This document shows, piece after piece, positions 22,337 through 38,115 of a stretch of 64,000 nt of DNA. This DNA comes from Stutzerimonas nosocomialis (GTDB lineage Bacteria > Pseudomonadota > Gammaproteobacteria > Pseudomonadales > Pseudomonadaceae). The stretch is taken from NCBI RefSeq assembly GCF_005876855.1, contig NZ_QLAE01000001.1, forward strand, positions 205,418 to 269,417, in the 5' to 3' direction. Each line of letters begins with the position of its first letter. Position 1 is the first letter of the stretch. The translations under genes were made by a program, and so were the position numbers. The notes below the pieces were generated by a model. The model was not told the DNA's origin. It was given only the letters and a program-made list of their open reading frames with translations, and searched no databases.

Positions 22337-22397
22337 CGCTGTATTTCCGTAGCCCTGAGAGCCGGCAGTCTAGCCGCTTCGCGACGCCGTTTGCCGC

Positions 22398-22826: not shown

Positions 22827-22906
22827 GAGAGCCTTTCGAAAAAAGGGGTTCAGCATTTCTGACCCTGGCGTCCCGAAGGGGTGCGCGACGTTCATCGGGC
22901 CGTGGT

Positions 22907-23125
22907 TCAGGCCCGCTCGACGGACTCCTGGGTGGTCCGGCTTGGCTGGGTGGTTTGCTCCAGCTGTGGTGACGGCGCCTCGCCGCCGGCCATGGTGCGG
23001 CGGAAGCCGCCCACCGCTTCGCCCAGGTCGCTGCCCAGGCTGCGCAGGCGCCGGCTGCCGAAGAGCATGAGGACGATGAGCAGGATGATGACCAGTTGCC
23101 AGATGCTGATACCGCCGAAGCCCAT
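22907..23125 (-). CDS. tatA2: second TatA-type twin-arginine translocase subunit
   Basis: A TatA paralogue of 72 residues, separate from the tatABC operon at 38-39.5 kb. It starts [20 protein letters not shown], a single membrane helix, then the hinge [15 protein letters not shown] and an amphipathic helix [13 protein letters not shown], with a short polar tail. The housekeeping TatA here has the same layout ([19 protein letters not shown]). It is divergent from gspK and close to a Tat-targeted PhoX, so it may supply Tat pores for exporting that phosphatase; this link is inference. Confidence 0.88.
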
Positions 23126-23180
23126 GAGGTGTCTCCCTGTCTGTCGAAAAAATGGGTTCGGCATAGCCTGCCGCACGGGT

Positions 23181-23198
23181 GTGACCGGGCGATGACGC
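23181..23198 (-). promoter_or_regulatory. candidate Pho box upstream of tatA2
   Basis: On the minus strand the 18-mer GCGTCATCGCCCGGTCAC carries GTCAT and GTCAC exactly 11 bases apart, the same phasing as the E. coli phoA Pho box. It ends 56 bases before the tatA2 ATG. The heptamers match CTGTCAT at only 5 of 7 positions each, so this is tentative. Confidence 0.35.
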
Positions 23199-23261
23199 CG
23201 AGGCCGGCCTGCCACGCTTCTGCAACCTTGCCCGCGTTTACTAGGGCGCCAGGATTGGTGG

Positions 23262-24281
23262 ATGGCAGTGATGAATTACGGGCGGCAGCGGGGCGTGGCC
23301 CTGCTCATGGTGTTGATGGCGCTGGCGATGCTGGCGGGCGGGCTGACCTGGCTGGTCCAGCAGGGCCGTGAGGAGATCGAGCGCACGCGGCAACTGCAGA
23401 CGCGGATCCAGGCACGGGCGGTCGACACCGCGGCGCGGGCCTTCGCCGTGCAGGCGATGCGCGATCCGGCCTGGCGCGAGAGCCCCCTGTTCTGGCAGGC
23501 ACTGCGCGGCATGCCGCTGCCGTACCGTTTCGAGGGCGGCCAGGCGCGCCTGCTGCTGCGCGACCTGCGTACCTGCTTCAACCTCAATGCGCTGGTTGGC
23601 GAGGATCAGGCCCGTGCACGGCGGCAACTGGCCCATCTGCTCGGCGGCGGACGGCCCTCGTTCGACGACGACCGCCTGATCGATGGGCTGATCGACTGGA
23701 TGGACGCCGATCACCAGGCGCAGGTGCTGGGCGCGGAAACCGACCAGTATCTGCGCCTGCCCCGGCCGCGGGTGGCCGCGAACCAGCCACTGCGCGACAC
23801 CAGCGAGCTGAACCTGCTGCTGCCGGCCGAACCGCAGCGCTACCTGCGCCACCCCCAGCTGTGCGCGCTGCCGGAAAACACAGGCTGGCGGCTCAACGTC
23901 AACGCGCTGACCCTGGAGCAATTGCCGCTTCTGGACGCGCTGTACGAGGGCGGACTGCCGCGCAGCCTGCTGACCCGCCTGATCAGTGCGCGCCCCGCCG
24001 GCGGCTACCGTGACGCCGATGACCTGCGCCGCCATCTGGGCGCGCTGGACGAGGCGACCTTCGAGCGCCTGAGCGAAGGCCTGCTGCTGAACAGCGACCA
24101 CTTCCTGTTGGGCATCGAGATACGGCTGGACGAGGCGGACTACCGAACCCTGCACCAGGTCGAGGTGCGCGGGGTCTCGCGCTGGCACAGTCGGGTGCCG
24201 GCGCAGCAGGTGCTCTTTCGCAGCCGCCAGCCCGCGCCGTTCTGGACCGCGCAGACGCCGGCCCGCCTCCTGGTGCCCTGA
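23262..24281 (+). CDS. gspK: type II secretion minor pseudopilin GspK
   Basis: GspK (339 residues) is the large minor pseudopilin capping the type II secretion pseudopilus. A short leader ([11 protein letters not shown]) precedes the hydrophobic helix [21 protein letters not shown] long periplasmic domain follows, with [18 protein letters not shown], and a C-terminal segment [20 protein letters not shown]. It is detached from the rest of the gsp genes: phoX lies between, in the opposite direction, and the gspC-N operon starts 4 kb away. Two ATGs nine bases apart could serve as start. Confidence 0.9.
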
Positions 24282-24404
24282 GCCGAGCGTCGCTTGGGGG
24301 CCGGCAGGCCGAAGCACGCTTCGTTCGATCAGCGAATACGCAGCGAAGGGCGCCTTGCCGGGGCAGCCGGGTAGGCGTGCGGCTGCCGTTACGGAGAGGC
24401 GAAT

Positions 24405-24438
24405 AAAAAAGGCCGGCACCGTTTCCGGTGCCGGCCTT
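24405..24438 (-). terminator. rho-independent terminator of phoX
   Basis: A 13-bp stem, AAGGCCGGCACCG with CGGTGCCGGCCTT, has a 4-base loop (stem 24409-24421 and 24426-24438). On the minus strand it runs into six T residues. It sits just past the phoX stop. Confidence 0.92.
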
Positions 24439-24454
24439 GTTCAGGCAGGAGGGA

Positions 24455-26506
24455 TCAGACGCCGATCGGGCCGCCGTCCACCTTCTGGATCACTACCGTC
24501 GAGGCGCGCGGGCGAACCGTGACGCCGGCCGGCGTCGCTTCGGTCGCATCGTCGCTGTACGGCCAGTTACCCGGATGCTGGATGTTGACGAACATCGAGG
24601 TGTAGTCCGGGGTGTAGGCGATGCCGGTCACTTCGCTGCCATTGGGGCCGATGAAGAAGCGGCGCAGCTCGCTCTGGTTGTCGGCCGTCACCGGCACCTG
24701 GTTGCCCTGGGCGTCGACGAGGTTGGTCGGGATTACCGCCAGCATCTGGTCGTTGGTCTGGCTGGCCACGGCGTTGCCGCTGTTGTCGGTCTGGATCCAG
24801 AGGATGCCGCGGTTATCGAAGATCATGCCGTCCGGGCTGGCGAACTGGTTCAGGTCGGTCAGGCCCGAGCGGTTGGTGGAGGGGGCGGCGGTCGCCTCGG
24901 AACCGAAGACGAAGATGTCCCAGGTGAAGTTGAGCTGATCGTCGGCGTCGTGCCAGCGGATGATGTGGCCGTTGACGTTGTTCGTACGCGGGTTGGCTGC
25001 GTTCGGCGTGGTGCGCGATGAGTTGTTGGTCAGGGTCAGGTAGATGTCGCCGTTGAGCGGGTTGACCGTGGTCCATTCCGGGCGGTCCATCGGCGTGGCG
25101 CCAAGGGCGTCGGCCGCACCGCGGGTGTTGAGGATGATGTCGTCGATATCGCCGAACAGCGTGCCCAGGGTCTGCCCGTTGGTGGCGACGCTGGCGACCG
25201 TCAGCGGCAGCCAGACACCGGTGCCGTTGTCGTCGAAGCGCGCCACGTAGAGGGTGCCCTGGTCCATGTACTTGGCACCGGTGGCCAGGCGATCGCTCGG
25301 GTTGGCATCGGCCGGGTCCCAGAGGGCGGTGGAGACGAACTTGTAGACGTACTCGTTCTGAGCGTCGTCGCCGCTGTAGAACACCACCGGCTTGCCGGCT
25401 TCCAGCAGGCCCGGCCAGCAGCCTTCGTGACGGAAGCGGCCCAGCGCGGTGCGCTTCACGGCGCGGGTGTTGGCATTGTACGGATCGATCTCGACGATGT
25501 AGCCGTAGGTGCTCGCCTCGTTGCGGTAATCCTGGGTGAAGTCGGCCCCGGTCGGGGTGATGTTGAAACGGGCGAATTCGTCGTCGACCTCGCTCGGATC
25601 GCCCGCGGCGGTTTCCCAGGCGTACTGGCTGGTACCGCTGTTGCGGATGCCGATGCGCGCCTGGTCGGCGGGCAGGGGCTGCTGCGTGTTGACGAAGACG
25701 TTCGGCCAGTTCTCCTCGCAGGTCAGATAGGTGCCCCAAGGGGTGTAGCCGTTGCCGCAGTTGTTGTTGGTGCCGCGGGTCTCGGTGCCGTTGGGCGAGA
25801 AGGGCGTACGCACGTGGTCGGTGCCCCGCATCGGCCCGGACAGGTCCATCACGCTGGCGGTGGTGAAGCGACGGTTCAGCGGGTCGTTCTCGACCACCTG
25901 CCAGTTGCCGTTGATCTTGGTGATACGCACCACGGCCACGCCATGGGCGTTGATGTCCTTGCGCACTTCCTCTACCGGACGAACGCCGCCGACCCGGGTC
26001 GGGCCGTTGGGGTGCAGCACGTTTTCGATGTACTCGTGGTTCATCACCAGCAGCCCGTCGTCCGAGCTGCCGTTGATGGGGAAGAAGTGCATGCCGTCGT
26101 GGTTCATGCCCATCGCGTTGGCCTGGTCGACCGAAGTGTTGGTGCCGTCGTCCTTCCAGGGAGCGGCGTTGCTGTTGATCGGCTGGCCCCAGGGCGCCAG
26201 GACACTCGCGGTATAGCCGGCGGCGACGACGCAGGCATCGGTGCGCGAAACAGGAATCGAGTCGAAGCTCAGGGCCAGCGGCTGTGCCGGGGTGTTCGGG
26301 TTGCCCGGGTTCGGGTTGTTCCGGCGCGAACTGCTGCCGCCGCTGTCGAAGCAACCGGTCAGGCCGGTGCCCGCGATCATGGCGATCGCAGCGCCCAGGC
26401 CGCCACGCAGAACGGTACGGCGGGAAAGGTAGGACTCGAGTACCGAGTCCATCGGCCGGTTGTCGCTGGGGTTGGCATTCACGTTGGTGCCAGTATGACG
26501 GCTCAT
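24455..26506 (-). CDS. phoX: PhoX-type alkaline phosphatase, Tat signal, possible lipoprotein
   Basis: A PhoX family (DUF839) phosphatase of 683 residues, which liberates phosphate from organic phosphomonoesters outside the cytoplasm. A twin-arginine signal (SRRTVLRGG, Arg 29-30) leads into a hydrophobic stretch ending GTGLTGC, which also reads as a lipobox with Cys 52. Family segments include WGTYLTCEENWPN, GRFRHEGCWPG, FYSGDDAQNEYVYKF and NQFASPDGMIFD; PhoX enzymes bind iron and calcium. The ATG follows AAGGAG. The gene has its own terminator and shares a Pho-box intergenic region with the divergent SoxB-like/gsp operon. Position inside a T2SS cluster suggests onward secretion or surface display; that is inference. 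Confidence 0.93.
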   Translation of the reverse strand: MSRHTGTNVNANPSDNRPMDSVLESYLSRRTVLRGGLGAAIAMIAGTGLTGCFDSGGSSSRRNNPNPGNPNTPAQPLALSFDSIPVSRTDACVVAAGYTASVLAPWGQPINSNAAPWKDDGTNTSVDQANAMGMNHDGMHFFPINGSSDDGLLVMNHEYIENVLHPNGPTRVGGVRPVEEVRKDINAHGVAVVRITKINGNWQVVENDPLNRRFTTASVMDLSGPMRGTDHVRTPFSPNGTETRGTNNNCGNGYTPWGTYLTCEENWPNVFVNTQQPLPADQARIGIRNSGTSQYAWETAAGDPSEVDDEFARFNITPTGADFTQDYRNEASTYGYIVEIDPYNANTRAVKRTALGRFRHEGCWPGLLEAGKPVVFYSGDDAQNEYVYKFVSTALWDPADANPSDRLATGAKYMDQGTLYVARFDDNGTGVWLPLTVASVATNGQTLGTLFGDIDDIILNTRGAADALGATPMDRPEWTTVNPLNGDIYLTLTNNSSRTTPNAANPRTNNVNGHIIRWHDADDQLNFTWDIFVFGSEATAAPSTNRSGLTDLNQFASPDGMIFDNRGILWIQTDNSGNAVASQTNDQMLAVIPTNLVDAQGNQVPVTADNQSELRRFFIGPNGSEVTGIAYTPDYTSMFVNIQHPGNWPYSDDATEATPAGVTVRPRASTVVIQKVDGGPIGV

Positions 26507-26591
26507 GCTTACAGCTCCTTGGCTTAGGTGTTGGCGAGCCAGGACTGTAGGTAGCGAATGTGATAATTCTTTTATAGTTATATGAAGATAT

Positions 26592-26605
26592 GTTCTAAAA
26601 AGAAC
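26592..26605. repeat. short inverted repeat upstream of phoX
   Basis: GTTCT and AGAAC arms flank AAAA in the phoX/SoxB-like intergenic region. It could be an operator or part of the AT-rich phoX promoter; no regulator is recognised. Confidence 0.35.
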
Positions 26606-26635
26606 TGCTTCTCCTGACAGACGGCCGATGGCTGT

Positions 26636-26653
26636 CTGACATGTCCCTGTCAT
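26636..26653 (+). promoter_or_regulatory. Pho box of the SoxB-like/gsp operon and phoX
   Basis: CTGACAT-GTCC-CTGTCAT matches the Pho box pattern of two CTGTCAT heptamers with a 4-base spacer; 13 of 14 heptamer positions agree. It is followed after 10 bases by CAATAT, a possible -10, and ends 49 bases before the ATG of the SoxB-like gene. On the opposite strand, GTCAG half-sites at 26636-26640 and 26614-26618 are exactly 22 bases apart, so PhoB could also act on phoX. Confidence 0.75.
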
Positions 26654-26701
26654 CTGACTGCCGCAATATCCCCACGCATTCGAGTTGTGGGTGACAGATT
26701 G

Positions 26702-28327
26702 ATGACAAGGTTGGCGCGCCGCGAGGCGCTGGCGTGGTTGATGGCGGGGGCCTCGCTGCCCTGGCTGGGGGGCTGCGCCAGCAGCGCGCGATCGGCCAGT
26801 GGCCGGGGCCCTTTCGAGCTTCTCTACTACGCCGATACCCTGGATGCACGCCAGCCGGGTTTGCCGGTGGTGCCGCGCACCCGGCTGGGCGCCGCCTCGC
26901 GTATCGGCCAGGCGCCGTGGCTGACCGGCCCGAGCGCCCGCGCCGCCTTCCCCGATGCCCCCCAGTTCGGACCCTTGCTCGATGCCGCGTTGCCAGCGTC
27001 GGAAATCGGCGGTTACGCGACGCTCGGCGCCCTGCTCGAACATTTGCGCCGCGAAGCCGGCGTCGACAATTGCCTGGTGCTGGAGAACGGCCAGTGCTGG
27101 AACGGCAGCGGGCTGGCCATGCTGACCCAAGGGGCGTCGGGCCTCCAGGGCAGTGAACTGCTCGGCGCCGAGGTGCGGGTCAGCAGCGACGAGCGTGTGC
27201 TCTGGCCGGAGCAGGCCGCCGGGCTGTACCGCCAGTGGGGCCGCCCGGTGCTTGGCGCCGGGCTGCAGAGCCCGGGCGTTCAGCCGCTGGCGCGCTTTCG
27301 ACGCGCAGGCGTCGAGATCGCCGTGGTCGGTCTGCCGGACCCCTATGCCGCGGACCAGGCCGGCACCCTGGCGCAATGGTTCGACGCCCTTCAGCCGAGC
27401 CTCGACGAGGCCCGCCGGCAGGCCGACCTGGTGATCGCCCTGGCTGACGTTGGCACCGGCCCCGGCCTGTGGCTGGCCGAGCGGCTGGAACAGGTGGACC
27501 TGGTGCTCGCGGCCCGCGGGCAGGACCTCTGGCCGCGCCCGATCGAGGTCCGTCAGGCGTCGGGCCGCCGCGTGCCGCTGGTGGTGGCCGGCAGCCGCGG
27601 CTGCGGCGCCTTTCGCATTCGCTGCCTGCCGGGCGACACGGGCTGGCGCTTCGAGGCGAGCTTCCATCCGGCCTATGCCGGCAGCCTGGATGCCGCCGGC
27701 CGCGAGACCCAGGCCCGCTTGTCGCGCGAGCTCGCTGTCCAGCGTGCGGCCCATGCCGGCTGGCTCGACCAGCCGCTGGCACGGGCGCCCGAACCGCTCT
27801 GGCGGCGGGACGTGCGCGGTGGCAGCTGGGACCGCCTCATTCACCAGGCCCTCGCCGAGGGCTACGACGGCGGCGTGCTGCTGCCGGGCCTGCGCTATGA
27901 CGTGCCGCTGCGCCAGGGCCAGGTCATCACCCGCGAACACCTGCTGTGCCTGACCGGCAGCCACCCGGCGCCGGTGCGCGAGGTGGCGGCGGGTTCGCTG
28001 GGGCGGGTTCTGGAGAACGCCGCCGAACAGCTGTTCGGCGACCTGGCCATTCTCGACAACAGCCAAGACCTGCCGCGCCTGTTCGGCCAGTCCTGGCAGG
28101 TCGCCTACAGCCCGAGCGGGCAGCGCGTCCAGGCGCCCGCCGCGCCGGCGCGGCTGCGTACCTTCGGCCTCGGTCCGCAGGCGGGCGGTCAACCGCTCTG
28201 GCAGATGCTGGAAGCCTACCTGCGCGAGCAGCCGGGCGACTGGCGACTGCCGGCGCTGGCCGTGCCGCAGTTGCGCTACCTGCAGGGCCATCCCGGTTGG
28301 CATCCGGCACCGGGGGAGACGGCATGA
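26702..28327 (+). CDS. SoxB/5'-nucleotidase-like lipoprotein, apparently inactive
   Basis: A protein of 541 residues, first in the gsp operon. The N-terminus (LARREALAWLM, then PWLGGC) combines a possible twin-arginine motif with a lipobox at Cys 25. The body resembles SoxB and related 5'-nucleotidase metallophosphatases: LLYYADTL, LVLENGQCWNGSGLAML and LVLAARGQDLW align with SoxB-type DxH, GGDTWQG and GHTHD motifs. The ligand residues are largely replaced: His by Leu 47, the GGD Asp by Gln 131, and both His of GHxH (residues 271-274 read ARGQ). It is therefore probably a pseudoenzyme with a binding or structural role in secretion. The start is the ATG after GGGTGA. It overlaps gspC by ATGA. 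Confidence 0.72.
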   Translation: MTRLARREALAWLMAGASLPWLGGCASSARSASGRGPFELLYYADTLDARQPGLPVVPRTRLGAASRIGQAPWLTGPSARAAFPDAPQFGPLLDAALPASEIGGYATLGALLEHLRREAGVDNCLVLENGQCWNGSGLAMLTQGASGLQGSELLGAEVRVSSDERVLWPEQAAGLYRQWGRPVLGAGLQSPGVQPLARFRRAGVEIAVVGLPDPYAADQAGTLAQWFDALQPSLDEARRQADLVIALADVGTGPGLWLAERLEQVDLVLAARGQDLWPRPIEVRQASGRRVPLVVAGSRGCGAFRIRCLPGDTGWRFEASFHPAYAGSLDAAGRETQARLSRELAVQRAAHAGWLDQPLARAPEPLWRRDVRGGSWDRLIHQALAEGYDGGVLLPGLRYDVPLRQGQVITREHLLCLTGSHPAPVREVAAGSLGRVLENAAEQLFGDLAILDNSQDLPRLFGQSWQVAYSPSGQRVQAPAAPARLRTFGLGPQAGGQPLWQMLEAYLREQPGDWRLPALAVPQLRYLQGHPGWHPAPGETA

Positions 28328-28749
28328 CCGGCGTCCTGCAGCTGGGGCTGGCCACGCTCGCCGCGTGGCTGGCCGCCCAGTGCCTGCTGACGCTCTGGCA
28401 CGGGCCGGCACCCCTGCCGCTGACGGCCCCGGCCCGCACGGTGCCGCCGCTGGATCTTCTGACCGAGCACTGGACACCCCGCACCGCGCCGGTCAGCGAC
28501 GAGATTCCCGTGACCGGCCTGCCGCTGACCTGGGTGGGCGGGCTGAAGGCCGAGCCGCTGCAGGCCACCGTGGTCGTACTCGGTTACCGCGAGCAGCAGC
28601 ACACCCTGACCGAGGGCCAGTCGCTGGCACCCGGCATCGTGCTGCGCCGCATCGACGAGCGCGGCCTGATCTTCGAACACAACGGCCGGCTGGAGCGTCT
28701 GCCCTGGCCCGCCGAGCGCCCCCTGCAAGGACTCAAACGCCATGGTTAG
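28324..28749 (+). CDS. gspC: type II secretion protein GspC, short form
   Basis: GspC links the inner-membrane platform to the secretin. It has 141 residues: one N-terminal membrane helix (LQLGLATLAAWLAAQCLLTL), a Pro-rich linker and the HR domain (LPLTWVGGLKAEP, LTEGQSLAPGIVLRRIDE, HNGRLERLPWP). The PDZ or coiled-coil domain of longer GspC proteins is absent. The ATG overlaps the preceding stop, and the end overlaps gspD by eight bases. Confidence 0.85.
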   Translation: MTGVLQLGLATLAAWLAAQCLLTLWHGPAPLPLTAPARTVPPLDLLTEHWTPRTAPVSDEIPVTGLPLTWVGGLKAEPLQATVVVLGYREQQHTLTEGQSLAPGIVLRRIDERGLIFEHNGRLERLPWPAERPLQGLKRHG

Positions 28750-30673
28750 GTTGTCCATAGCAACTCCGCTGCTGTTCTGCCTGCTCGCGTCGCCGCTCGC
28801 GGCCGAGGAATTCCCGCTCGCCGAGCCGCAGCGCTACGAGGTCAATTTCGTCGACACCGAGATGGGCGAGTTCATCGACAGCGTCTCGCGGATCACCGGC
28901 ACCACCTTCATCGTCGACCCGCGGGTGCAGGGCAGGGTCACCGTGCGGACGGTCACCCGCCACACCCCGGACGAAATCTACGACCTTTTCCTCGCTCAGC
29001 TGCGCGCCCAGGGCTTCGCCGCGGTGGACCTGGCCGACGGCCAGGTGAAGATCGTGCCCGACCAGGCGGCGCGCCTCGAACCGGTGCCGGTGGATACGCC
29101 GCAGCGCACCGCGCAGGCCGCCAACGGCATGGCCACCCGGGTGTTCAGCGTGCGCAATGCCAGCAGCGCCCAGATCCTGGACGTGATCAAGCCGCTGATC
29201 GACCCGCGGGTCGGGGTCATCACCCCCTATCCGTCGGCCAATCTGCTGGTGGTCACCGACTGGCGCAGCAACCTGGGCCGCATCGAGGCCCTGCTGCGCC
29301 AGCTCGATCAGGTCAGCGACGAGCCGGTGGAGACCCTGCCGTTGCGTCATGCCAATGCCCGCGACACCGCTAAGGTGGTCACCGAGCTGCTGGGCCGGGA
29401 AGGCGCCGGCGACAGCGCCAAGGTGGTCGCCGACCAGCGCGGCAACGCCCTGCTGGTACGCGGCAGCGGCGCGGCCCGCGAGCGCGTGCGGCAGCTGCTC
29501 GGCCAGCTGGACGTGGCCCGCGAGCACGTCGGCAACACCGAAGTGATCTACCTGCGCCACGCCCGCGCCGGCGACGTGCTCAAGGTGTTGCGCGGGCTCG
29601 GCCAGGAGTCCGGCGCGGTGCCGGCCGAAGAGGGCGCGGCGGCAACGCCGGTGGCCACGGTCGAAGGCGTGCGGCTGGAAGCCGAGGAGGGCGCCAACGC
29701 CATCGTCATGCTCGGCCCCGACAACGATCTGTCCACCTACCGGCAGATCATCGAACGGCTCGACATCCGTCGTGCCCAGGTGGTGGTCGAGGCGATCATC
29801 GCCGAGGTTTCCGACACCCGTGCCCAGGAGCTGGGCGTGCAGTGGCTGTTCCTCGACCCGGACAGCAAGCTGCCGGCCGGCAGCGTCAGCTTCGGCAACA
29901 ACGGCATCAATCGCCTCGCCGCGGCGGCGGCCAGCCGGAACTACACCCAGGCCGGCTCGCTGCTGTCGAACATACAGGGCGTGACAGCCGGCGTCGGGCA
30001 CGTCGGCGGCGGCATCAACTTCATCGCGCTGCTCAACGCCCTGCGCAACGAGAACGGCTTCAACCTGCTGTCCACGCCCACGCTGGTGACCCTCGACAAT
30101 GCCGAGGCTTCCATCCTGGTGGGCCAGGAAGTGCCCTTCGTCACCGGTTCGATCACCCAGAACAACGCCAACCCCTACCAGACCATCGAGCGCAGGGAAG
30201 TCGGCGTGAAGCTGCGCCTCAAGCCGCAGATCAACGTCGACAACACGGTGCGGCTGGACATCATCCAGGAAGTCTCCTCGATCGCCGATACCAGCAGCGC
30301 CAGCGACGTCATCACCAACAAGCGCGAGATCAAGACCACGGTGATGGTCGAGGACAACGGCATGGTGGTGCTCGGCGGGCTGATCAGCGACGAGCGTGCC
30401 AACAGCGACCAGCGCGTGCCGCTGCTCGGCGACGTGCCCGGGCTGGGCCGGCTGTTCCGCTCCACCGCGCGCAGCCAGGTCAAGCAGAACCTGATGGTGT
30501 TCATCCGCCCGCGCATCGTGCGCGACGCCCTGACCCTCGGCCAGCTGAGCGACGAGAAATACCGCAACCTGAAGGCCGCCAGCCCCCTGGAACTGCCGGC
30601 CCTGGCCGAGCAGGGCGAGCTGCTCGGCCTGTTCCCCTCGAGCCGGGCGCGGCTCGGCGAACTGGTGCGCTGA
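28742..30673 (+). CDS. gspD: type II secretion secretin GspD
   Basis: GspD (643 residues) forms the outer-membrane channel. A signal peptide (LLFCLLASPLAA) is followed by the N0 domain (YEVNFVDTEMGEFIDSVSRI) and N1-N3 repeats, seen as FSVRNASSAQILDVIKPL, LPLRHANARDTAKVVTEL and IYLRHARAGDVLKVLRGL. The C-terminal secretin domain has VVVEAIIAEVSD, VPFVTGSITQ and VPLLGDVPGLGRLFRS. Little sequence follows the secretin domain and no pilotin gene is adjacent, so its route to the outer membrane is unclear. Confidence 0.95.
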   Translation: MVRLSIATPLLFCLLASPLAAEEFPLAEPQRYEVNFVDTEMGEFIDSVSRITGTTFIVDPRVQGRVTVRTVTRHTPDEIYDLFLAQLRAQGFAAVDLADGQVKIVPDQAARLEPVPVDTPQRTAQAANGMATRVFSVRNASSAQILDVIKPLIDPRVGVITPYPSANLLVVTDWRSNLGRIEALLRQLDQVSDEPVETLPLRHANARDTAKVVTELLGREGAGDSAKVVADQRGNALLVRGSGAARERVRQLLGQLDVAREHVGNTEVIYLRHARAGDVLKVLRGLGQESGAVPAEEGAAATPVATVEGVRLEAEEGANAIVMLGPDNDLSTYRQIIERLDIRRAQVVVEAIIAEVSDTRAQELGVQWLFLDPDSKLPAGSVSFGNNGINRLAAAAASRNYTQAGSLLSNIQGVTAGVGHVGGGINFIALLNALRNENGFNLLSTPTLVTLDNAEASILVGQEVPFVTGSITQNNANPYQTIERREVGVKLRLKPQINVDNTVRLDIIQEVSSIADTSSASDVITNKREIKTTVMVEDNGMVVLGGLISDERANSDQRVPLLGDVPGLGRLFRSTARSQVKQNLMVFIRPRIVRDALTLGQLSDEKYRNLKAASPLELPALAEQGELLGLFPSSRARLGELVR

Positions 30674-32133
30674 TGGCCGAGCCCCTGCTGCCCTATCGTC
30701 TGGCCCGCCAGTGCGGCGTGGCCTTGCGCGCCGAGGCCGGCGGCTTGCACCTGCTGCTGCGCGAGGCGCCGGACCTGGGCCAGCTGCAGGAAGTGCTGCG
30801 GGTGCACGGCGCGCCGAGCGCCTGTACCACCCTGGCCGGCGAAGCCTTCGAGCAGGCTCTGGGGACGCTCTACCAGGCGGGGGAGCCGACCAGCGCGGCG
30901 TGGATCGACGGCATCGCCGAGCAGGTCGATCTGGCCGGATTGATGAGCGAACTGCCGCGCATCGAGGATCTGCTCGACAGCGAGAACGAGGCGCCGGTGA
31001 TCCGGCTGATCAACGGGCTGCTGGCCGAGGCGCTGCGGCTCAAGGCCTCGGACATTCACATCGAGACCTTCGAGCAGTGCCTGGTGGTGCGCCTGCGGGT
31101 GGACGGCCAGCTGCGCGAGGTGCTCAGCCCGCCGCGAGCGCTGTCGGCCATGCTGGTGTCGCGGATCAAGGTCATGGCACGCCTGGACATCGCCGAGAAG
31201 CGCCAGCCGCAGGACGGCCGTATCAGCCTGCGCCTGGGCGGACGCGACGTGGACATCCGCGTCTCCACCCTGCCGGGCATCCATGGCGAGCGGGTGGTGA
31301 TGCGGGTGCTGGACAAGCAGGCCAGCCTGCTCGAACTCGCCAACCTGGGCATGCCGGCGGAGGTGGAGGAGCGCCTGCGGCGCTGCCTGCAGCAGCCCAA
31401 CGGCATCCTGCTCAGCACCGGCCCGACCGGCTCGGGCAAGACCACCACGCTGTACGCCAGCCTCAATGGGCTCAACGACGGGACGCGCAACATCCTCACC
31501 GTCGAGGACCCGGTCGAGTACGCCATCACCGGCATCGGCCAGACCGCCATCAACCCGCGCGCCGGCCTGACCTTCGCCAGCGGCCTGCGCGCCATCCTGC
31601 GCCAGGACCCGGACGTGATCATGGTGGGCGAGATCCGCGACATGGAGACCGCGCAGATCGCCGTGCAGGCCAGCCTCACCGGCCACCTGGTGCTCTCCAC
31701 GCTGCACACCAACAGCGCGGTGGGCGCGGTGACCCGCCTGCGCGACATGGGCATCGAGCCGTTCCTGATCGCCTCCAGCCTCAAGGGCGTGCTGGCCCAG
31801 CGGCTGGTGCGCCAGCTGTGCGACTGCGCCCGGCCGCGATCGCTGCTGCCGGCCGAACAGGCTTTGCTCGAAGGGCTCGATGCGCTGGAGGCGCTCTTCG
31901 AGCCGGTCGGCTGCGAAGCCTGCGCCCACACCGGCTACCGCGGGCGGCTGGGGCTGTACGAATTCATCGAGCTGGACCCGGGCCTGATCGGCCTGCTCTA
32001 CGCCGGTGCCAGCGAGCCGGAGATGGAGCGCTATCTCGCCGGCCGCCGCCAGAGCCTGGCTCAGGCGGCCCAGGCCCAGTTGCGCCAGGGCCGCACCAGC
32101 CTCGCCGAAGTGCTGCGCGCGGTGCAGCGCTAA
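30673..32133 (+). CDS. gspE: type II secretion ATPase GspE
   Basis: GspE (486 residues) is the cytoplasmic ATPase that drives pseudopilus assembly. Walker A is GPTGSGKTTTLYA near residue 251; the Asp box is LTVEDPVEY, Walker B IMVGEIRD and the His box VLSTLHTNSA. The zinc-finger region reads LCDCARP and later GCEACAHTGYRGR, so the first pair is CxC instead of the usual CxxC. The ATG overlaps the gspD stop (TGATG). Confidence 0.95.
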   Translation: MAEPLLPYRLARQCGVALRAEAGGLHLLLREAPDLGQLQEVLRVHGAPSACTTLAGEAFEQALGTLYQAGEPTSAAWIDGIAEQVDLAGLMSELPRIEDLLDSENEAPVIRLINGLLAEALRLKASDIHIETFEQCLVVRLRVDGQLREVLSPPRALSAMLVSRIKVMARLDIAEKRQPQDGRISLRLGGRDVDIRVSTLPGIHGERVVMRVLDKQASLLELANLGMPAEVEERLRRCLQQPNGILLSTGPTGSGKTTTLYASLNGLNDGTRNILTVEDPVEYAITGIGQTAINPRAGLTFASGLRAILRQDPDVIMVGEIRDMETAQIAVQASLTGHLVLSTLHTNSAVGAVTRLRDMGIEPFLIASSLKGVLAQRLVRQLCDCARPRSLLPAEQALLEGLDALEALFEPVGCEACAHTGYRGRLGLYEFIELDPGLIGLLYAGASEPEMERYLAGRRQSLAQAAQAQLRQGRTSLAEVLRAVQR

Positions 32134-32145
32134 CGGGACGCCGCC

Positions 32146-33345
32146 ATGCCGACCTACCTCTACCACGCCCTCGACCCCCAGGGCCGCCGCTGCCGCGACC
32201 TGGTGCAGGCCGACAGCGAGCGCCACGCCCGCCAGCTGCTGCGCGAACAGGGCCTGTTCGCCCGCCGCCTCGAGCTGCAGGTGCAAGGCGGGCGGCGCGC
32301 GGCCGGTCGACGGCTGAGCCATGCCCAGCTCTGCGAACTGACCCGCCAGCTGGCGACCCTGCTCGGCGCGGCGATACCCCTGGCCGAGGCGCTGGCCACC
32401 CTGGAGCGCCAGCTCGACGCGGCGTCGCGGCGGGTGCTGGCCAGCGTCGGCGCCTCGGTGGCCGAGGGTCACGGGCTGGCCGAGAGCCTGCGCCGCCATG
32501 GCGCGCCCTTCGATACGCTCTATTGCGCGCTGGTCGAGGCCGGCGAGCGCTCCGGCCGCCTGGCGCCGGTACTCGAACGCCTGGCCGACTACCTCGAACA
32601 GGTCCAGCGCCAGCGCCACAAGGCACGTACCGCGCTGGTCTACCCGGCGGTGCTGATGCTGGTCTCGGTGATCGTCGTGGTGGGCCTGATGACCTTCGTG
32701 GTGCCGCGCCTGACCGAGCAGTTCGATCACCTCGGGCGCAGCCTGCCCCCCATCACCCGGGTGCTGATCGGCCTCAGCGAGGCGCTGGTCGCGGCCGGGC
32801 CCTGGCTGCTCGGCGCACTGGTGCTGGCCGCGATCGGCGGCGGCGCGCTGCTGCGACGGCCGCACTGGCGCTTTCGCCGCGACCGCCTGCTGCTCGGCCT
32901 GCCGCGCGTGGGCGTGCTGCTGCGTGTGCTCGACAGCGCGCGCCTGTCGCGCAGCCTGGCGATCCTCTGCGGCAGCGGAGTTCCGCTGCTCGACGCCTTG
33001 CAGGTCGGCACCGCCACGGTCGGCAGCCTGCCGATCCGCGCGGCGCTCGAGCGTGCCCGCGAACAGGTCAAGGGCGGCCTGAGCCTCCACCGCTCGCTGT
33101 CCACCGACGGCCACTTCCCGCCGATGCTCATCAACATGGTGGCCAGTGGCGAGGCCAGCGGCACGCTGGCCGAGATGCTCGAGCGCGTGGCCGACAACCA
33201 GGAGCGCGCCTTCGCCCGCCAGGTCGACCTGGCCCTGGCGCTGTTCGAGCCGGCGATGATCCTGGTGATGGGTGCCATCGTGCTGTTCATCGTCCTCGCC
33301 GTGCTGCTGCCGATCATGCAACTCAACCAGGGCCTCACCTTCTAG
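32146..33345 (+). CDS. gspF: type II secretion inner membrane protein GspF
   Basis: GspF (399 residues) is the polytopic platform protein. It starts MPTYLYHALDPQGRRCRDL, then two homologous helical domains (LTRQLATLLGAAIPLAEAL and LSRSLAILCGSGVPLLDAL), each followed by membrane helices such as ALVYPAVLMLVSVIVVVGL and PAMILVMGAIVLFIVLAVL. The TF signature MLINMVASGEASGTLAEML is present. Spacing to gspE is 12 bases. Confidence 0.95.
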   Translation: MPTYLYHALDPQGRRCRDLVQADSERHARQLLREQGLFARRLELQVQGGRRAAGRRLSHAQLCELTRQLATLLGAAIPLAEALATLERQLDAASRRVLASVGASVAEGHGLAESLRRHGAPFDTLYCALVEAGERSGRLAPVLERLADYLEQVQRQRHKARTALVYPAVLMLVSVIVVVGLMTFVVPRLTEQFDHLGRSLPPITRVLIGLSEALVAAGPWLLGALVLAAIGGGALLRRPHWRFRRDRLLLGLPRVGVLLRVLDSARLSRSLAILCGSGVPLLDALQVGTATVGSLPIRAALERAREQVKGGLSLHRSLSTDGHFPPMLINMVASGEASGTLAEMLERVADNQERAFARQVDLALALFEPAMILVMGAIVLFIVLAVLLPIMQLNQGLTF

Positions 33346-33356
33346 GAGTCCAGACC

Positions 33357-33800
33357 ATGCGCGATTCGTCCTTGTCCTGCCGCCGGCAACGCGGTTTCAC
33401 CCTGATGGAAATCATGGTGGTGATCTTCATCATCGGCCTGCTGGTGGCCATCGTCGCGCCCAACGTGCTCGGCAACCAGGATCAGGCCATGCAGCAGAAG
33501 GTGCGCGCGGATCTCGCCACCCTCGAGCAGGCGCTGGACCTCTACCGCCTGGAAAACCTGCGCTACCCGACCACCGAGCAGGGCCTGGCGGCGCTGATCG
33601 AAAAGCCCGTCAGCGAGCCGCTGCCGCGCGCCTGGCGTGCCGACGGCTACCTGCGCCGCCTGCCGAAGGACCCCTGGGGGCAGGCCTACCAGTACCGCTC
33701 GCCCGGACAGCACGGGCGCTTCGACGTCTATTCCCTCGGCGCCGACGGCATCGCGGGCGGCGAGGGCACCGATGCCGACATCGGCAACTGGAACCTGTGA
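33357..33800 (+). CDS. gspG: type II secretion major pseudopilin GspG
   Basis: The major pseudopilin (147 residues). The prepilin leader ends RQRG, followed by FTLMEIMVVIFIIGLLVAIV with Glu at +5; the calcium-site end is YSLGADGIAGGEGTDADIGN. No prepilin peptidase gene lies in the cluster, so the type IV pilus peptidase PilD, expected elsewhere, must process it. AGGAG precedes the ATG. Confidence 0.96.
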   Translation: MRDSSLSCRRQRGFTLMEIMVVIFIIGLLVAIVAPNVLGNQDQAMQQKVRADLATLEQALDLYRLENLRYPTTEQGLAALIEKPVSEPLPRAWRADGYLRRLPKDPWGQAYQYRSPGQHGRFDVYSLGADGIAGGEGTDADIGNWNL

Positions 33801-34252
33801 AACGCCGCCGTGCCGCGGGCTTCAGCCTGCTGGAGCTGCTGCTGGTGCTGCTGATCGTCGGGCTGCTGACGGGGTTGTCGGTCGCCTGGCTGGCGCGGGG
33901 CGAAACCGCGGTGCCCGACGCGCTTGGCCGGCTGGCGCAGCGTGCCGCCAGCCTGGCCGAGGAGGCCCGCGACAGCGGTCGGTTGCTCGGGCTCGGCTGG
34001 TCGAACGGGGCGCCGGCGTTGCTGCGTCTGCACCCGAACACCGGCGGGACCGGCTGGCAGGCCGAACCGCTCGGCCTGGGCGACTGGCCGGAGGCGCTGC
34101 AACCGCGGCCGGCGGCCGAAGGCCGGCCGTGGGTGGTGTTCACCCCGACCGGCGTCGCGGGCGCGGCGCTGCTCGACTGGTCCTGGCCGCAGGGCGGCGA
34201 GCGTTGGCAGTGGGCCGGCGACGGCCAGCTGCGAATCGGTCCGCAGCCATGA
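33797..34252 (+). CDS. gspH: type II secretion minor pseudopilin GspH
   Basis: A minor pseudopilin (151 residues) with a GTG start overlapping the gspG stop. The leader KRRRAAG is followed by FSLLELLLVLLIVGLLTGLS, then an alpha/beta domain with LAEEARDSGRLLGLGW typical of GspH. It probably sits near the pseudopilus tip complex. Confidence 0.9.
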   Translation: MKRRRAAGFSLLELLLVLLIVGLLTGLSVAWLARGETAVPDALGRLAQRAASLAEEARDSGRLLGLGWSNGAPALLRLHPNTGGTGWQAEPLGLGDWPEALQPRPAAEGRPWVVFTPTGVAGAALLDWSWPQGGERWQWAGDGQLRIGPQP

Positions 34253-34608
34253 ACCGCAGCGCCGGCTTCACCTTGCTGGAGGTCATGGTGGCGCTGCTGA
34301 TCGCGGCGACCCTGGCGGTGATGGTCGGCGGCGTGCTGCGTCAGCGCATCGACGGCCACCTGGCGGTACGCGACCACCAGTACGGGGCGCTCTGCGCGCG
34401 CGAGCTGCTGGCGCGCTTCGAGGTCGAGCAGTACTGGCCGATGCGTGACGAGGTGGGCGGCGAACTGCGCCAGGGCCCCGGCCTGTGCCTGTGGCAGCTC
34501 ACGCTCGGTTACACGGGCGTGGCCAATCTGCGCCGCGGCGAGTTGATGCTGCGCGCCGAGGACGGTCGTCCGCTCGGCCAGTACAGCCTGTTCCTGCAAC
34601 GACCATGA
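34249..34608 (+). CDS. gspI: type II secretion minor pseudopilin GspI
   Basis: A minor pseudopilin (119 residues) with leader MNRSAG and helix FTLLEVMVALLIAATLAVMV. The segment ALCARELLARFEVEQYWP is in the position of the conserved GspI helix. GspI is the hub of the I-J-K tip complex. It overlaps gspH and gspJ by four bases each. Confidence 0.92.
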   Translation: MNRSAGFTLLEVMVALLIAATLAVMVGGVLRQRIDGHLAVRDHQYGALCARELLARFEVEQYWPMRDEVGGELRQGPGLCLWQLTLGYTGVANLRRGELMLRAEDGRPLGQYSLFLQRP

Positions 34609-35192
34609 TCGACCGCCAGCAGGGCCTGACCCTGATCGAACTGCTGGTGGCGATCGCCCTGACCGCCGTGCTCGGGGTGCTGGTCGCGGCGCTGGTCAAC
34701 GGCTGGCTGCAGGTACGCGAGCGCCTGGGCGCCGCCGAGCGGCCGCCGGTGCTGGATTTCTGCCTGGCGCTCGAAAGCCGCTTCGACGGCCTTGCCCTGC
34801 GCCAGTTGTACGAGCAGCGCCTGCCGTTGCCGATGGCCTGGCTCGACTGGCAGCCCGACCGCCTGCAACTGCAGTGGACGGCCCTGACCGGCTGGCCGCC
34901 GGTTACCGAAGGCTCGCGCCTGCAGCGTCAGCGGCTGGTCTACCAGGCCGGGGACGCGCGACTGGCGCTGTACAGCAGCGACGACCTCTACGCGGCCGAT
35001 CAGCCGCAATGGAGGCTGCGCGAACGCCTGGAAGAGGTCACTCAGCCACGCCTGAGCTTTCGCCAGGGCCAGCGCTGGCTGGCCTATCCCTCCACGGTGG
35101 CGGCGCAGCCCAACGCGGGCGTGCGGCTCGAATTCCTGTTTCGCGGAGACCCTTATGTCTGCACCTTCGCCCTGCCGGATACCCGGCCATGA
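34605..35192 (+). CDS. gspJ: type II secretion minor pseudopilin GspJ
   Basis: A minor pseudopilin (195 residues) with leader MIDRQQG and helix LTLIELLVAIALTAVLGVLV. The C-terminal region LSFRQGQRWLAYPS, ending with VRLEFLFRGDPYVCTFAL, is consistent with GspJ. It forms the tip with GspI and with GspK, which here is encoded 11 kb upstream. It overlaps gspL by ATGA. Confidence 0.9.
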   Translation: MIDRQQGLTLIELLVAIALTAVLGVLVAALVNGWLQVRERLGAAERPPVLDFCLALESRFDGLALRQLYEQRLPLPMAWLDWQPDRLQLQWTALTGWPPVTEGSRLQRQRLVYQAGDARLALYSSDDLYAADQPQWRLRERLEEVTQPRLSFRQGQRWLAYPSTVAAQPNAGVRLEFLFRGDPYVCTFALPDTRP

Positions 35193-36298
35193 TTGAGGCC
35201 CTGCGGCGACACCTGGCCCGCCCGGCGGCGGACGACTGGCTGCTGCTGCGCCCGAGCGACGCCGGGCCGTGGCGCTGGCTGCACTGGCGCGCCGGGCAGC
35301 TGCTTGCCGAAGGCGACTGGCCGCCCGCGCGGCATGACGAGACGCTGCGCCGTGCGCTGCTGGTTCCGGCGACGGCGTGCAGCCAGTTCGAAGTGGCGGC
35401 GCCACCGGGCGTGCGCCCGTCGGAATGGCCGCTGTTGCTCGAGGACCGCCTGCTGCAGCCTCCCGAGGCGGTGCAGGTGACCTGCGTCGGCCGCCACGCT
35501 GGGCGCTTGCGTCTGCTGGTCGTCGAGCGCAGCCGGCTGACCGCCTGGCAGCAGGCCGCCGCCGAGCATGGCATGCGCATCGAGCGCTGCTGGAGCGAGT
35601 ATCAGCTGCTGCCCGACATCGCGCCGGGGCAGGCGCTCGTCTGGCCGCGTGACGGTTACCGGTGCGTGGCGGGTCTCGACGAGGCCGGGTTGCCGTACTG
35701 GTTCGCCTGGCCGGACCCGCTCGGACCCTGGACCTCCGCCGACGGGGCGCAGGAACTGCCGCGCCAGGCGCCGGGTGGGCCCGGGCAGCCACTGGCGTCG
35801 CTGGCCGACCTGACACCTGGGCATCGGGCACGGCGCCCGTCGGCTTCCGGTCGGGGCCTGCGCCAGCTGGCCGCGCTCTGCGCCGTTTGCGCCCTGGCCT
35901 GGGGGCTGGCGCAGCTTGGCCAGACCTACCGTGAGGGCGAGCAGGGGCGTGTGCGCCTGGCCGAACGGCTCGGCGGTGTGACCACGCCGCCGCAGGCCGA
36001 GGCGCGCCTGCGGCGGCTGCAGCGGGACGACCAGGCGGCGGCGTTCCGTCAGCAGCAACTGGCCGCGCTGGGCTCGGCCGTTGACGCCTTGCTGGCCGCA
36101 GCGCCTGGCGTCCAGCTGGAAGCCCTCGGCTTCGACGGTCGTCACTGGACCCTGACCCTGAGCGGCGCCGACGGCTCGTTGAGCGACGGACGACGTTGGG
36201 ATGCCCTCGGCGAGGCGCTCGGGATGACTGCGACCCTGGAGCAGGACGGCACGCAGCTGACTGCCCGCTTCGATCTGGATACAGGAGGCGACTCATGA
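35189..36298 (+). CDS. gspL: type II secretion protein GspL
   Basis: GspL (369 residues) anchors the GspE ATPase. A cytoplasmic actin-like part (WLLLRPSDAGPWRWLHW, LLVVERSRLTAWQQAAAEHG) precedes one membrane helix (LAALCAVCALAWGLAQLG, near residue 230-247), followed by a periplasmic ferredoxin-like domain (GVQLEALGFDGRHWTL). Sequence conservation in GspL is low, so the call rests on layout and position between gspJ and gspM. Confidence 0.87.
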   Translation: MIEALRRHLARPAADDWLLLRPSDAGPWRWLHWRAGQLLAEGDWPPARHDETLRRALLVPATACSQFEVAAPPGVRPSEWPLLLEDRLLQPPEAVQVTCVGRHAGRLRLLVVERSRLTAWQQAAAEHGMRIERCWSEYQLLPDIAPGQALVWPRDGYRCVAGLDEAGLPYWFAWPDPLGPWTSADGAQELPRQAPGGPGQPLASLADLTPGHRARRPSASGRGLRQLAALCAVCALAWGLAQLGQTYREGEQGRVRLAERLGGVTTPPQAEARLRRLQRDDQAAAFRQQQLAALGSAVDALLAAAPGVQLEALGFDGRHWTLTLSGADGSLSDGRRWDALGEALGMTATLEQDGTQLTARFDLDTGGDS

Positions 36299-36732
36299 GC
36301 CTGGACCGTTTGTTCAGCCACTGGCAGGGCCTGCCGCCGGCACGCCAGCGTCTGCTGGCCGTCGGCTGGCTGCTGGTGGCGCTGATGGCGGCCTACGTGG
36401 CCGGCCGCCCGTTGCTCAACGGCTGGCAGGACGCCCTGCGCTGGCGACAGCTGGCCATCGAGGCCCAGGCGCTGGCGCAGTCCCGCGCGCTGGTCGCCGA
36501 CGACTGGGGCGCGCTGGGCCAGGCCAGCGGCGTAGTACTCACCGAAGTGCGCGAGGCCGATGGCGACTGGTCGGTGGAGGGCCGCCTGCCACGAGCCGGC
36601 GCCCTGGCGGCGTTGGTCGAGCGCGTGGTTGCCCAGGGCTGGCGAGTCGAGGCGTGGGCCGTGCGGCGCGATGCCGAGGGGTTCGCCTTCACCCTGGTGG
36701 CGCGGCCGGCCGGTCGGGAGCCGATGCGTTGA
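36295..36732 (+). CDS. gspM: type II secretion protein GspM
   Basis: GspM (145 residues) has a short cytoplasmic N-terminus, one membrane helix (LLAVGWLLVALMAAYVAG) and a small periplasmic ferredoxin-like domain (LVERVVAQGWRVEAWAV). It pairs with GspL. AGGAGG precedes the ATG, and the start overlaps the gspL stop. Confidence 0.86.
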   Translation: MSLDRLFSHWQGLPPARQRLLAVGWLLVALMAAYVAGRPLLNGWQDALRWRQLAIEAQALAQSRALVADDWGALGQASGVVLTEVREADGDWSVEGRLPRAGALAALVERVVAQGWRVEAWAVRRDAEGFAFTLVARPAGREPMR

Positions 36733-37403
36733 GGCCGGCGCTGCTCGTCTGGGCACTGGCGGTGTTCGTCCTGGTGGCGCTGGCCGGTGCGCCGGCCGCC
36801 TTCTGGTCGCGCTGGATACCCTGGCCGGAAGGCTGGGCGCCGCAAGCGGTCAGCGGCACCCTGTGGCGCGGCCAGGCCGAGCGGCTGGGTGCGCTGGCTC
36901 CGTTGCGCTGGCGGGTGCGGCTGGCCGACGGTCCGGCGCTCGAGGTGAGCGCCGGTGCCTTGCAGCGGGACTGGCATGCCGTCGTGCGCGGCTGGCCCTG
37001 GGCCTGGCAGGCGACGCTGGAGGATGGAGGGCCAGGACCGGCGAGCGGCGAGCTGGTTCGTCTGGAGGGTGCCTGGCAGGGCAGCGTGCTGGTGCGGGGG
37101 CAAGGCCGTCGTTGCGTGGCCGCCGAGGGCGGTTTGCACGCGCCACGGCTGGTCCTGATCGCCCCCTGGGGCATGCCGCTGGGACGAGGCGATCTGGAAC
37201 TCGACTGCACGGGACCGCCTCGGTTGAACGCGCGCCTGGAACGCGCCGGGCATCATCGCTTCGCGCTGACGGCGTTGCGGGATGCGCGCCGCAGCGACCT
37301 GGCCGGCAGCGTCGAACCGGGCTCGGAACTGGCAGCGCTGCTCCGTCAGTTCGGCCTGATCGATGCCGGTCAGCAGCGTTTCGAGACGTCGATGAGCTGG
37401 TGA
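36729..37403 (+). CDS. gspN: type II secretion protein GspN
   Basis: GspN (224 residues) begins with a TTG that overlaps the gspM stop and a membrane anchor LLVWALAVFVLVALAGAP. The family segments FWSRWIPWPEGWAP, AVSGTLWRGQAERL and the terminal LIDAGQQRFETSMSW are present. GspN occurs in only some T2SSs and its role is unclear. It is the last gene of the operon and ends four bases from the convergent rsmE stop. Confidence 0.82.
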   Translation: MRPALLVWALAVFVLVALAGAPAAFWSRWIPWPEGWAPQAVSGTLWRGQAERLGALAPLRWRVRLADGPALEVSAGALQRDWHAVVRGWPWAWQATLEDGGPGPASGELVRLEGAWQGSVLVRGQGRRCVAAEGGLHAPRLVLIAPWGMPLGRGDLELDCTGPPRLNARLERAGHHRFALTALRDARRSDLAGSVEPGSELAALLRQFGLIDAGQQRFETSMSW

Positions 37404-37407
37404 GGCT

Positions 37408-38115
37408 TCAGAACAGCCGTGCCAGCAGCGCCGGGACGGCCGTCTCGACGCGCAGGATGCGCTCGCCCAGTTGCACCGGCGCGAGGCCGGCGGCGGCGAG
37501 CTTTTCCACTTCATAGGGAATCCAGCCGCCTTCCGGGCCGATGGCCAGGGTCACCGGCTCGCTCAGGGCGCGAGGGCAGGGCGGATAGTCGCCGGGGTGG
37601 CCGGTGAGACCGAGGCTGCCGGCCGCCAGGGCGGGCAGGCGATCCTCGACGAAGGGTTTGAAGCGCTTCTCGATGATGACCTCGGGCAGCAGGGTGTCGC
37701 GGGCCTGTTCGAGGCCGAGCACGAGCTGTTCGCGGATCGCGGCGGGTTCGAGGAAGGGGGTCTGCCAGAAGCTCTTTTCCACCCGGTAGCTGTTGAGCAG
37801 CACCAGACGCGGCACGCCCATGGCGGCGACCGTCTGCAGCACGCGGCGCAGCATCTTGGGACGCGGCAAGGCGAGCAGCAGGGTGAGGGGGAGCTTGGCC
37901 GGCGGCGGCTGGTCGAGACTGATCTCGAGTTCGGCTTCCTGTTCGTCCAGGCGTAACAGGCGCCCTTCGCCCATCAGCCCGCCGAGCTGGCCGACCCGCA
38001 GGGTCTGCCCGACCTCGGCCTCGTGGACCTCGCGCAGATGCCTGAGGCGCCGGTCGCGCAGGACGACCCGGTCGCCCGCCACATGGTCGGCGGGCTCGAG
38101 CAGCAGCAGGTTCAC
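37408..38115 (-). CDS. rsmE: 16S rRNA (uracil-1498-N3)-methyltransferase RsmE
   Basis: RsmE (235 residues) methylates U1498 of 16S rRNA using SAM. It has an N-terminal PUA-like part ([19 protein letters not shown]) and a C-terminal SPOUT knot ([32 protein letters not shown]). The GTG start overlaps the tatC stop. It is the last gene of the ubiE-to-rsmE run. Confidence 0.95.

Follow-up and report, generated by a model that had tools for sequence, protein, structure and literature searches.

The block at positions 22907-37403 of the window (the whole 64,000-nucleotide stretch of Stutzerimonas nosocomialis DNA analyzed here) is, judged from gene order and locus numbers, a locus of the Pseudomonas putida Xcp/UxpB type. 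As a whole, it is best explained, with a probability that we put at roughly 0.7, as a PhoB-controlled locus for the two-step secretion of a PhoX phosphatase by the Tat system and a type II secretion system (T2SS), in which a lone TatA paralogue (TatA2) would top up the Tat system and a SoxB-like pseudoenzyme would act as an accessory. The apparent novelty lies in the SoxB-like protein, which is UxpA by position and in which the metal site has been lost and kept lost.

Gene content of the block

Profile searches of the window proteins recovered all of the genes that the first-pass annotation had named for the block, namely a TatA paralogue, gspK, a PhoX with a Tat signal, a SoxB-like protein, and gspC-N. 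On the minus strand, tatA2 (22907..23125) encodes a lone TatA paralogue of 72 aa, assigned to TatA by PF02416 (E 5e-10) and by TIGR01411 over its cut-off, and phoX (24455..26506), the uxpB orthologue, matches PF05787 (E 2e-140, scanned inside a longer frame). Between them, on the plus strand, is the minor pseudopilin gene gspK (23262..24281; PF21687, E 5e-20; PF03934; NF037980 over cut-off). The SoxB-like gene (26702..28327, plus strand; TIGR04486, E 2e-32), which is the uxpA orthologue by position, is followed on the same strand by gspC (28324..28749; PF11356 and TIGR01713 weak and below cut-off, placed by its position after the SoxB-like gene), the secretin gene gspD (28742..30673; TIGR02517, E 4e-176; PF00263), the ATPase gene gspE (30673..32133; PF00437, E 8e-141, scanned inside a longer frame), gspF (32146..33345; PF00482, E 6.5e-62), the major pseudopilin gene gspG (33357..33800; PF08334, E 6e-42, inside a longer frame, with matches to solved GspG), gspH (33797..34252) and gspJ (34605..35192), each recognized by an N_methyl motif and operon position, gspI (34249..34608; PF02501, E 2e-6, inside a longer frame), gspL (35189..36298; PF12693 and PF05134, both below cut-off), gspM (36295..36732), and gspN (36729..37403; PF01203, E 0.0017, below cut-off, and position). 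The names of gspC, gspL, gspM, and gspN are based partly on operon position, with Pfam scores below cut-off or absent; for gspM, the Pfam search gave no match and tblastn gave weak matches in many loci.

The genes gspD, E, F, G, I, and K score over their profile cut-offs, and the secretin, ATPase, platform protein, and pseudopilins that make up a T2SS are encoded together. The block is not the sole T2SS of the genome, as a second GspD over cut-off is encoded on contig C17. The long frames open on the opposite strand, such as 30175-33321 and, upstream of phoX, the remainder of 24455-28477, appear to be shadow frames in high-GC DNA.

The block is flanked by dtd and rsmE, with the housekeeping tatABC genes next to rsmE. 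It had been placed directly beside tatABC, which is wrong, as rsmE (37408-38115) separates gspN from the housekeeping tatC (38112-38903), tatB (38900-39247), and tatA1 (39263-39493), all three on the minus strand and identified by PF00902 and PF02416.

Relation to known phosphatase secretion loci

Like the window, the P. putida Xcp/UxpB locus has divergent phoX (uxpB) and SoxB-like (uxpA) genes, a gspK apart from gspC-N, Pho control (predicted in the case of the window), and a phosphatase with a Tat signal. The order gspK, divergent phoX, SoxB-like gene, gspC-N is common to WCS358 (L048), P. putida (L040, L054, and L064), and most of the 80 related loci compared, which are the best 80 of 99 found. 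Within this sample, the SoxB-like gene is directly followed by gspC in all 80 loci, with a 4-base overlap in 73 of them and in the window; phoX lies inside the fetched stretch in 79, and in the 80th, from Azomonas, the contig carries a phoX some 0.7 kb past that stretch. The linkage of the SoxB-like gene, gspC, and phoX is not due to chance, and the possibility that these genes co-occur only in this strain is excluded by their presence in 80 related loci. Within the window's own genus, the SoxB-like gene was found in only 2 of 56 genomes.

The Hxc T2SS of P. aeruginosa is phosphate-regulated. It resembles the T2SS of the window in serving a phosphatase, the link between LapA and Hxc being given in a table (excerpt of PMC4899797), and differs in its substrate, which is LapA rather than PhoX. 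HxcQ is a liposecretin (excerpt of PMC2996285), whereas the window GspD is without a typical lipobox by eye.

According to an excerpt of PMC4509608, citing Putker 2013 in wording that is ambiguous as to species, an Xcp T2SS secretes UxpB, a phosphatase of the PhoX type, when phosphate is low, and UxpB is identified as PP_1043 with a Tat signal in an excerpt of PMC12700990. The earlier proposal of a phosphate-controlled Tat-then-T2SS route for PhoX is well supported, but its description as an undescribed system fails, as papers on the corresponding locus of P. putida have already been published (excerpts of PMC4509608, PMC12700990, and PMC5082522).

Probable phosphate control and export of PhoX

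Between the divergent phoX and SoxB-like genes lies a candidate Pho box (26636..26653, plus strand, CTGACAT-GTCC-CTGTCAT). Scored against the sequence that we take to be the Pho box consensus, it has one mismatch. The site is kept in the phoX/SoxB-like gap of 79 loci, with a mean of 2.04 mismatches versus 5.23 in the single-base shuffles used as control; in L027, this gap was computed as 3218 bases. The tatA-gspK gap holds Pho-like sites that are weaker than the phoX sites, with only weak sites of 4 mismatches in the window and a mean of 3.83 mismatches versus 5.60 in shuffles across 66 loci, and they are not leaned on here. Control of the block by PhoB is predicted from the conserved candidate Pho box, and PhoBR dependence of gspK, PhoX, and UxpA is reported in strain BIRD-1 (excerpt of PMC5082522).

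The window PhoX has the PF05787 domain and the Tat signal of PhoX alkaline phosphatases, with an SRR motif plus an LTGC lipobox at its N-terminus, and the lipobox pattern is present in 77 of the 79 PhoX N-termini compared. The nearest solved structure is PhoX 3zwu, aligned over residues 78-682. PhoX would fold in the cytoplasm and then cross the inner membrane by Tat; it is probably lipidated, judging from the lipobox, and the T2SS encoded with it would take it across the outer membrane, as reported for UxpB in P. putida. The purpose of this export would be the cleavage of organic phosphate outside the cell.

The SoxB-like protein as a conserved pseudoenzyme

The SoxB-like protein is predicted to have the SoxB fold and is homologous over its full length to SoxB (structures 2wdc and 4uwq), and its score of 112 bits on TIGR04486 lies under the curated cut-off of 550. 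A Pfam search at max_evalue 10, in which most weak matches are removed by filters, gave no match. The ligands of the dinuclear metal site are taken here to lie in the motifs D-x-H, GGD, HWE, SHNG, and GHTH. In the alignment, six of the seven ligands are replaced, with the same substitutions in 80-81 of the 81 SoxB-like sequences, whereas all seven are intact in 53/53 other homologues sampled. A lipobox, found in 81/81, and the T2SS/PhoX context further set these proteins apart from the SoxB thiosulfohydrolase. Order- and class-wide searches yielded 59 loci, in which all six metal-free proteins adjoin gspC and phoX and none of the 53 with a metal site does; four of the six are the window or among the first 80 loci, and only two are fresh. 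The residues that replace the ligands, with Asp, Gln, Ser, and Arg among those of the old pocket, are near-invariant, and the low dN/dS of the gene indicates purifying selection.

On this alignment, the SoxB-like protein is a conserved pseudoenzyme. The loss of the catalytic metal site had gone unseen in the first-pass annotation. A working metallophosphatase is rejected, since six of the seven ligands are gone and the site is absent in all sequences aligned. The N-terminus carries an RR motif and an LGGC lipobox, from which export by Tat and lipidation are predicted. RR signals are also present in members of the SoxB thiosulfohydrolase family. UxpA is annotated as a 2',3'-cyclic-nucleotide 2'-phosphodiesterase and putative intracellular phosphatase in an excerpt of PMC5082522, a label that is questioned by the absence of the needed metal site from every sequence aligned. 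A literature search of open-licence PMC papers did not find the pseudoenzyme status or a role of UxpA in print.

It is possible, although not the reading favored here, that the SoxB-like protein is a second T2SS substrate with no part in PhoX secretion, namely a lipoprotein that is displayed on the surface or released and binds phosphate esters or nucleotides outside the cell. In favor of this reading, the gene lies at the Pho box, the protein is predicted to be Tat-exported and lipidated like PhoX, and the invariance of the former active-site pocket fits ligand binding; the gene, however, heads the gsp operon and overlaps gspC in most loci, whereas phoX, the gene for the substrate, is transcribed in the opposite direction. 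ElpS of Caulobacter crescentus is a precedent, as a lipoprotein induced by phosphate starvation whose gene adjoins a T2SS set; the T2SS is required for the release of ElpS but not for its arrival at the surface (excerpt of PMC2996285).

Tat genes beside the T2SS

A complete tatABC lies beside gspK in 56 of the best 80 of 99 loci, at 131-261 bases from match edge to match edge. The P. putida-type loci (L040, L048, L054, and L064) have tatABC at gspK, whereas the window has only the housekeeping-like TatA2 there and no dedicated tatABC; the only tatC found in its genome is that of the housekeeping tatABC. In a FastTree phylogeny built on about 50 residues, TatA2 clusters with housekeeping TatAs and not with the dedicated ones (clade support 0.84). 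This combined clade, in which most inner nodes have a support of 0.2-0.3, has the dedicated clade as its sister (0.91); L009 has a block TatA that lies outside the dedicated clade. The tree suggests that TatA2 is closer to housekeeping TatAs than to the dedicated set. An origin as a decayed leftover of a dedicated tatABC is disfavored by this grouping, in which inner support is weak. In this lineage, TatA2 probably arose by copying of a housekeeping TatA and would top up the single TatABC, standing in place of the dedicated TatABC borne by most sampled relatives.

Eight of the best 80 of 99 loci have gspK with full flanks and no tat gene beside it, so that local Tat genes are not obligatory. 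These loci would suit the view that tat and T2SS genes are neighbors only because of the site at which the block inserted and that TatA2 adds nothing to PhoX export, as would the site of the window block, where the housekeeping tatABC is next door anyway. We consider this unlikely in view of the short distance of full tatABC from gspK in the 56 loci and of lone TatAs, apparently of different origins, that occupy this position in P. matsuisoli on the one hand and in the window and Stutzerimonas KOS6 on the other. In Halomonas-type loci (L076, L079, L081, L082, and L083), about 3.6-4.6 kb separate the end of tatC from phoX; this tatABC is not claimed as adjacent, and in L079 and L081, the two genomes in which tatC genes were counted, that tatC is the only one. 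Deletion of both tatC genes failed in P. putida (excerpt of PMC6839425), in which TatC1 is PP_1039 (excerpts of PMC6839425 and PMC12700990). TatC1 seems to belong to a secretion unit that scavenges phosphate, a role that may bear on the failed double deletion.

Possible role of the SoxB-like protein

The loss of the metal site, kept in relatives, suggests a helper role. The pseudoenzyme would be derived from the SoxB thiosulfohydrolase family and would be a lipoprotein of the outer membrane or cell surface that is exported by Tat and produced together with the T2SS. Its function would be that of a receptor or adaptor, accessory to the secretion route, and not that of a phosphatase. A more specific and rather improbable form of this idea is a dedicated Tat-T2SS coupling factor, the old pocket of which would recognize the folded, lipidated PhoX, or its linker, on leaving Tat and pass it to GspC/GspD. 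In that case, the relay would function as a single unit, which would be the reason why Tat genes are retained at the locus or recruited to it again. To our knowledge, no pseudoenzyme adaptor of any T2SS has been described.

An enzyme with new metal-free or differently liganded chemistry, which the near-invariant pocket replacements and low dN/dS would allow, is very unlikely, as six of the seven ligands of the superfamily's known mechanism are gone under our presumed assignment and Pfam gave no match within its filters.

The accessory role preferred here touches on the old question of how T2SSs choose their folded substrates. With its strict conservation and its place in the gspC operon, in loci that usually have their own Tat genes, the pseudoenzyme is a concrete candidate for an accessory that is specific to one substrate.

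Gene content and boundaries of the block

The block at 22907–37403 contains, in order, tatA2 (a lone TatA paralogue, minus strand), gspK, phoX (minus strand), the SoxB-like gene, and gspCDEFGHIJLMN. The first-pass annotation had listed these genes, and profile and Pfam matches together with position agree with it; profile scores are weak for GspC, GspL, and GspN, and GspM had no match in the Pfam scan of the window proteins, so that these four names rest partly on position. The SoxB-like gene ends in a 4-base overlap with gspC. An RR motif is present at the N-termini of both PhoX and the SoxB-like protein, together with the lipoboxes LTGC and LGGC, respectively. The block had also been placed directly beside tatABC, but the order is gspN, rsmE, tatCBA, and a single gene separates it from the housekeeping Tat operon. 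Because dtd and rsmE lie only ~550–680 bases apart in five of the seven same-genus genomes without the block (dtd was outside the fetched stretch in the other two), the block occupies a defined point between these genes. A UPF0158 protein gene (22336–22906; same strand as tatA2 and immediately downstream) and the adjoining YjbR-family gene (21989–22336) border the inserted block.

The region separating phoX from the SoxB-like gene, which are transcribed divergently, holds a near-perfect Pho box at 26636 (one mismatch to the consensus), and a second Pho-like site (26691; opposite strand; two mismatches) overlaps the start of the SoxB-like gene. At low phosphate, PhoB probably switches on both phoX and the SoxB-like/gsp operon from this common intergenic region.

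Linkage of the SoxB-like gene to the T2SS operon

When named genomes were scanned using the SoxB-like protein as query, 99 relatives emerged, of which the best 80 loci were analyzed. Among these 80, gspC lies directly 3′ of the SoxB-like gene in every locus, with the same 4-base overlap as in the window in 73, and phoX is inside the fetched stretch in 79; in the Azomonas locus, phoX is on the same contig just past the end of that stretch. The hosts are mainly Pseudomonas, but include Stutzerimonas KOS6, Azomonas, Marinobacterium, Halomonas relatives, and two Pantoea-titled records. In Pseudomonas sp. SDI (L027), the fetched piece stops soon after the SoxB-like–gspC pair; the computed phoX–SoxB-like gap of 3218 bases is probably an artefact of match choice.

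Since these 80 loci were the top matches to a SoxB-like query, further samples were searched without selection for context. An order-wide sample of 390 genomes contained six full-length relatives above 700 bits (the window, three already among the 80 loci, and two fresh), all adjoining gspC, gspD, and phoX. In the genus of the window, the SoxB-like gene was found in only 2 of 56 genomes, the window genome and one whose coordinates agree with KOS6.

Tat genes adjoining gspK

Complete tatABC adjoins gspK in 56 of the 80 loci (minus strand; 131–261 bases from gspK by match edges), and a lone tatA in two. No tat gene adjoins gspK in eight loci, and gspK is absent from that side in 14, of which four are cut by a contig end and five are Halomonas-type with tatABC some kilobases off. 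Among 32 genomes (the window genome, G006, and those of 30 of the 80 loci; G006 is apparently identical to the KOS6 genome), 17 have two tatC copies and 15, including the window genome, have one. Marinobacterium mangrovicola (L078/G082) has two tatC on contig C6 (282–914 and 63493–64125), one of which is on the gspN side of the fetched block and not beside gspK.

In a TatA tree built on ~50 residues, with inner nodes mostly at 0.2–0.3, the TatAs of the dedicated operons beside gspK fall into a single clade (46 distinct cores; support 0.77), with that of L009 outside. TatA2 of the window and of KOS6 cluster with housekeeping TatAs of Stutzerimonas, Azomonas, P. mendocina, and P. cuatrocienegasensis (0.84), and the clade holding the window TatA2 is sister to the dedicated-operon clade (0.91). 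In P. matsuisoli (L080), the lone TatA groups with the other housekeeping type (0.98). The tree thus suggests, with moderate confidence, that a lone TatA was recruited beside gspK at least twice. TatA2 would supply extra TatA during abundant PhoX synthesis.

Proposed roles of PhoX and the SoxB-like protein

PhoX would fold with its cofactors, cross the inner membrane by Tat, probably become lipidated, and be carried over the outer membrane by the T2SS. A lipobox is present in 77 of 79 PhoX; those of Halomonas L079 and L081 keep the RR motif and lack the lipobox pattern, providing a natural test of the importance of lipidation. The block PhoX is one of three in the genome, as contigs C14 (3628–5277) and C9 (76979–78619) each carry another. 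A second T2SS secretin gene, on contig C17 (9544–11217), passes the GspD cut-off, so two or more T2SSs are probably present in this strain.

The SoxB-like protein, which has a lipobox, likely shares the Tat step with PhoX, as RR signals occur in 52 of 53 SoxB-family frames. It is more likely an accessory factor acting at the outer membrane, because its gene is first in the gsp operon and bound to gspC in every locus examined, whereas the known substrate gene, phoX, is divergent from that operon. Nearly as likely, the protein is itself exported as a second substrate and serves in binding.

Relation to the UxpB/Xcp system

The first-pass annotation saw in the combination of an extra TatA, a T2SS, PhoX, and the SoxB-like protein the best candidate for an undescribed system. 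However, an Xcp T2SS is reported to secrete the PhoX-type phosphatase UxpB at low phosphate in P. putida, in wording that could also denote P. aeruginosa (PMC4509608), and Tat-then-T2SS export in general is already known in P. aeruginosa (PMC4899797). UxpB is PP_1043 of P. putida and has a Tat signal (PMC12700990), and PP_1039 is tatC1, the spacing expected for tatC, tatB, tatA, gspK, and phoX; a double tatC mutant was not obtainable (PMC6839425). In strain BIRD-1, the GspK, PhoX, UxpA, and GspG proteins (1091, 1093, 1094, and 1099) are PhoBR-dependent (PMC5082522). Given these reports on UxpB, tatC1, and PhoBR, the route is not new for the block phosphatase. The block matches the P. putida Xcp/UxpB locus, KT2440 and BIRD-1 being likened by gene order and numbering, and the SoxB-like protein corresponds by position to UxpA.

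In the open-licence papers searched, neither UxpA as a pseudoenzyme nor its strict operon bond with the T2SS was found reported. The system in the window is of a known kind, with its Tat part changed.
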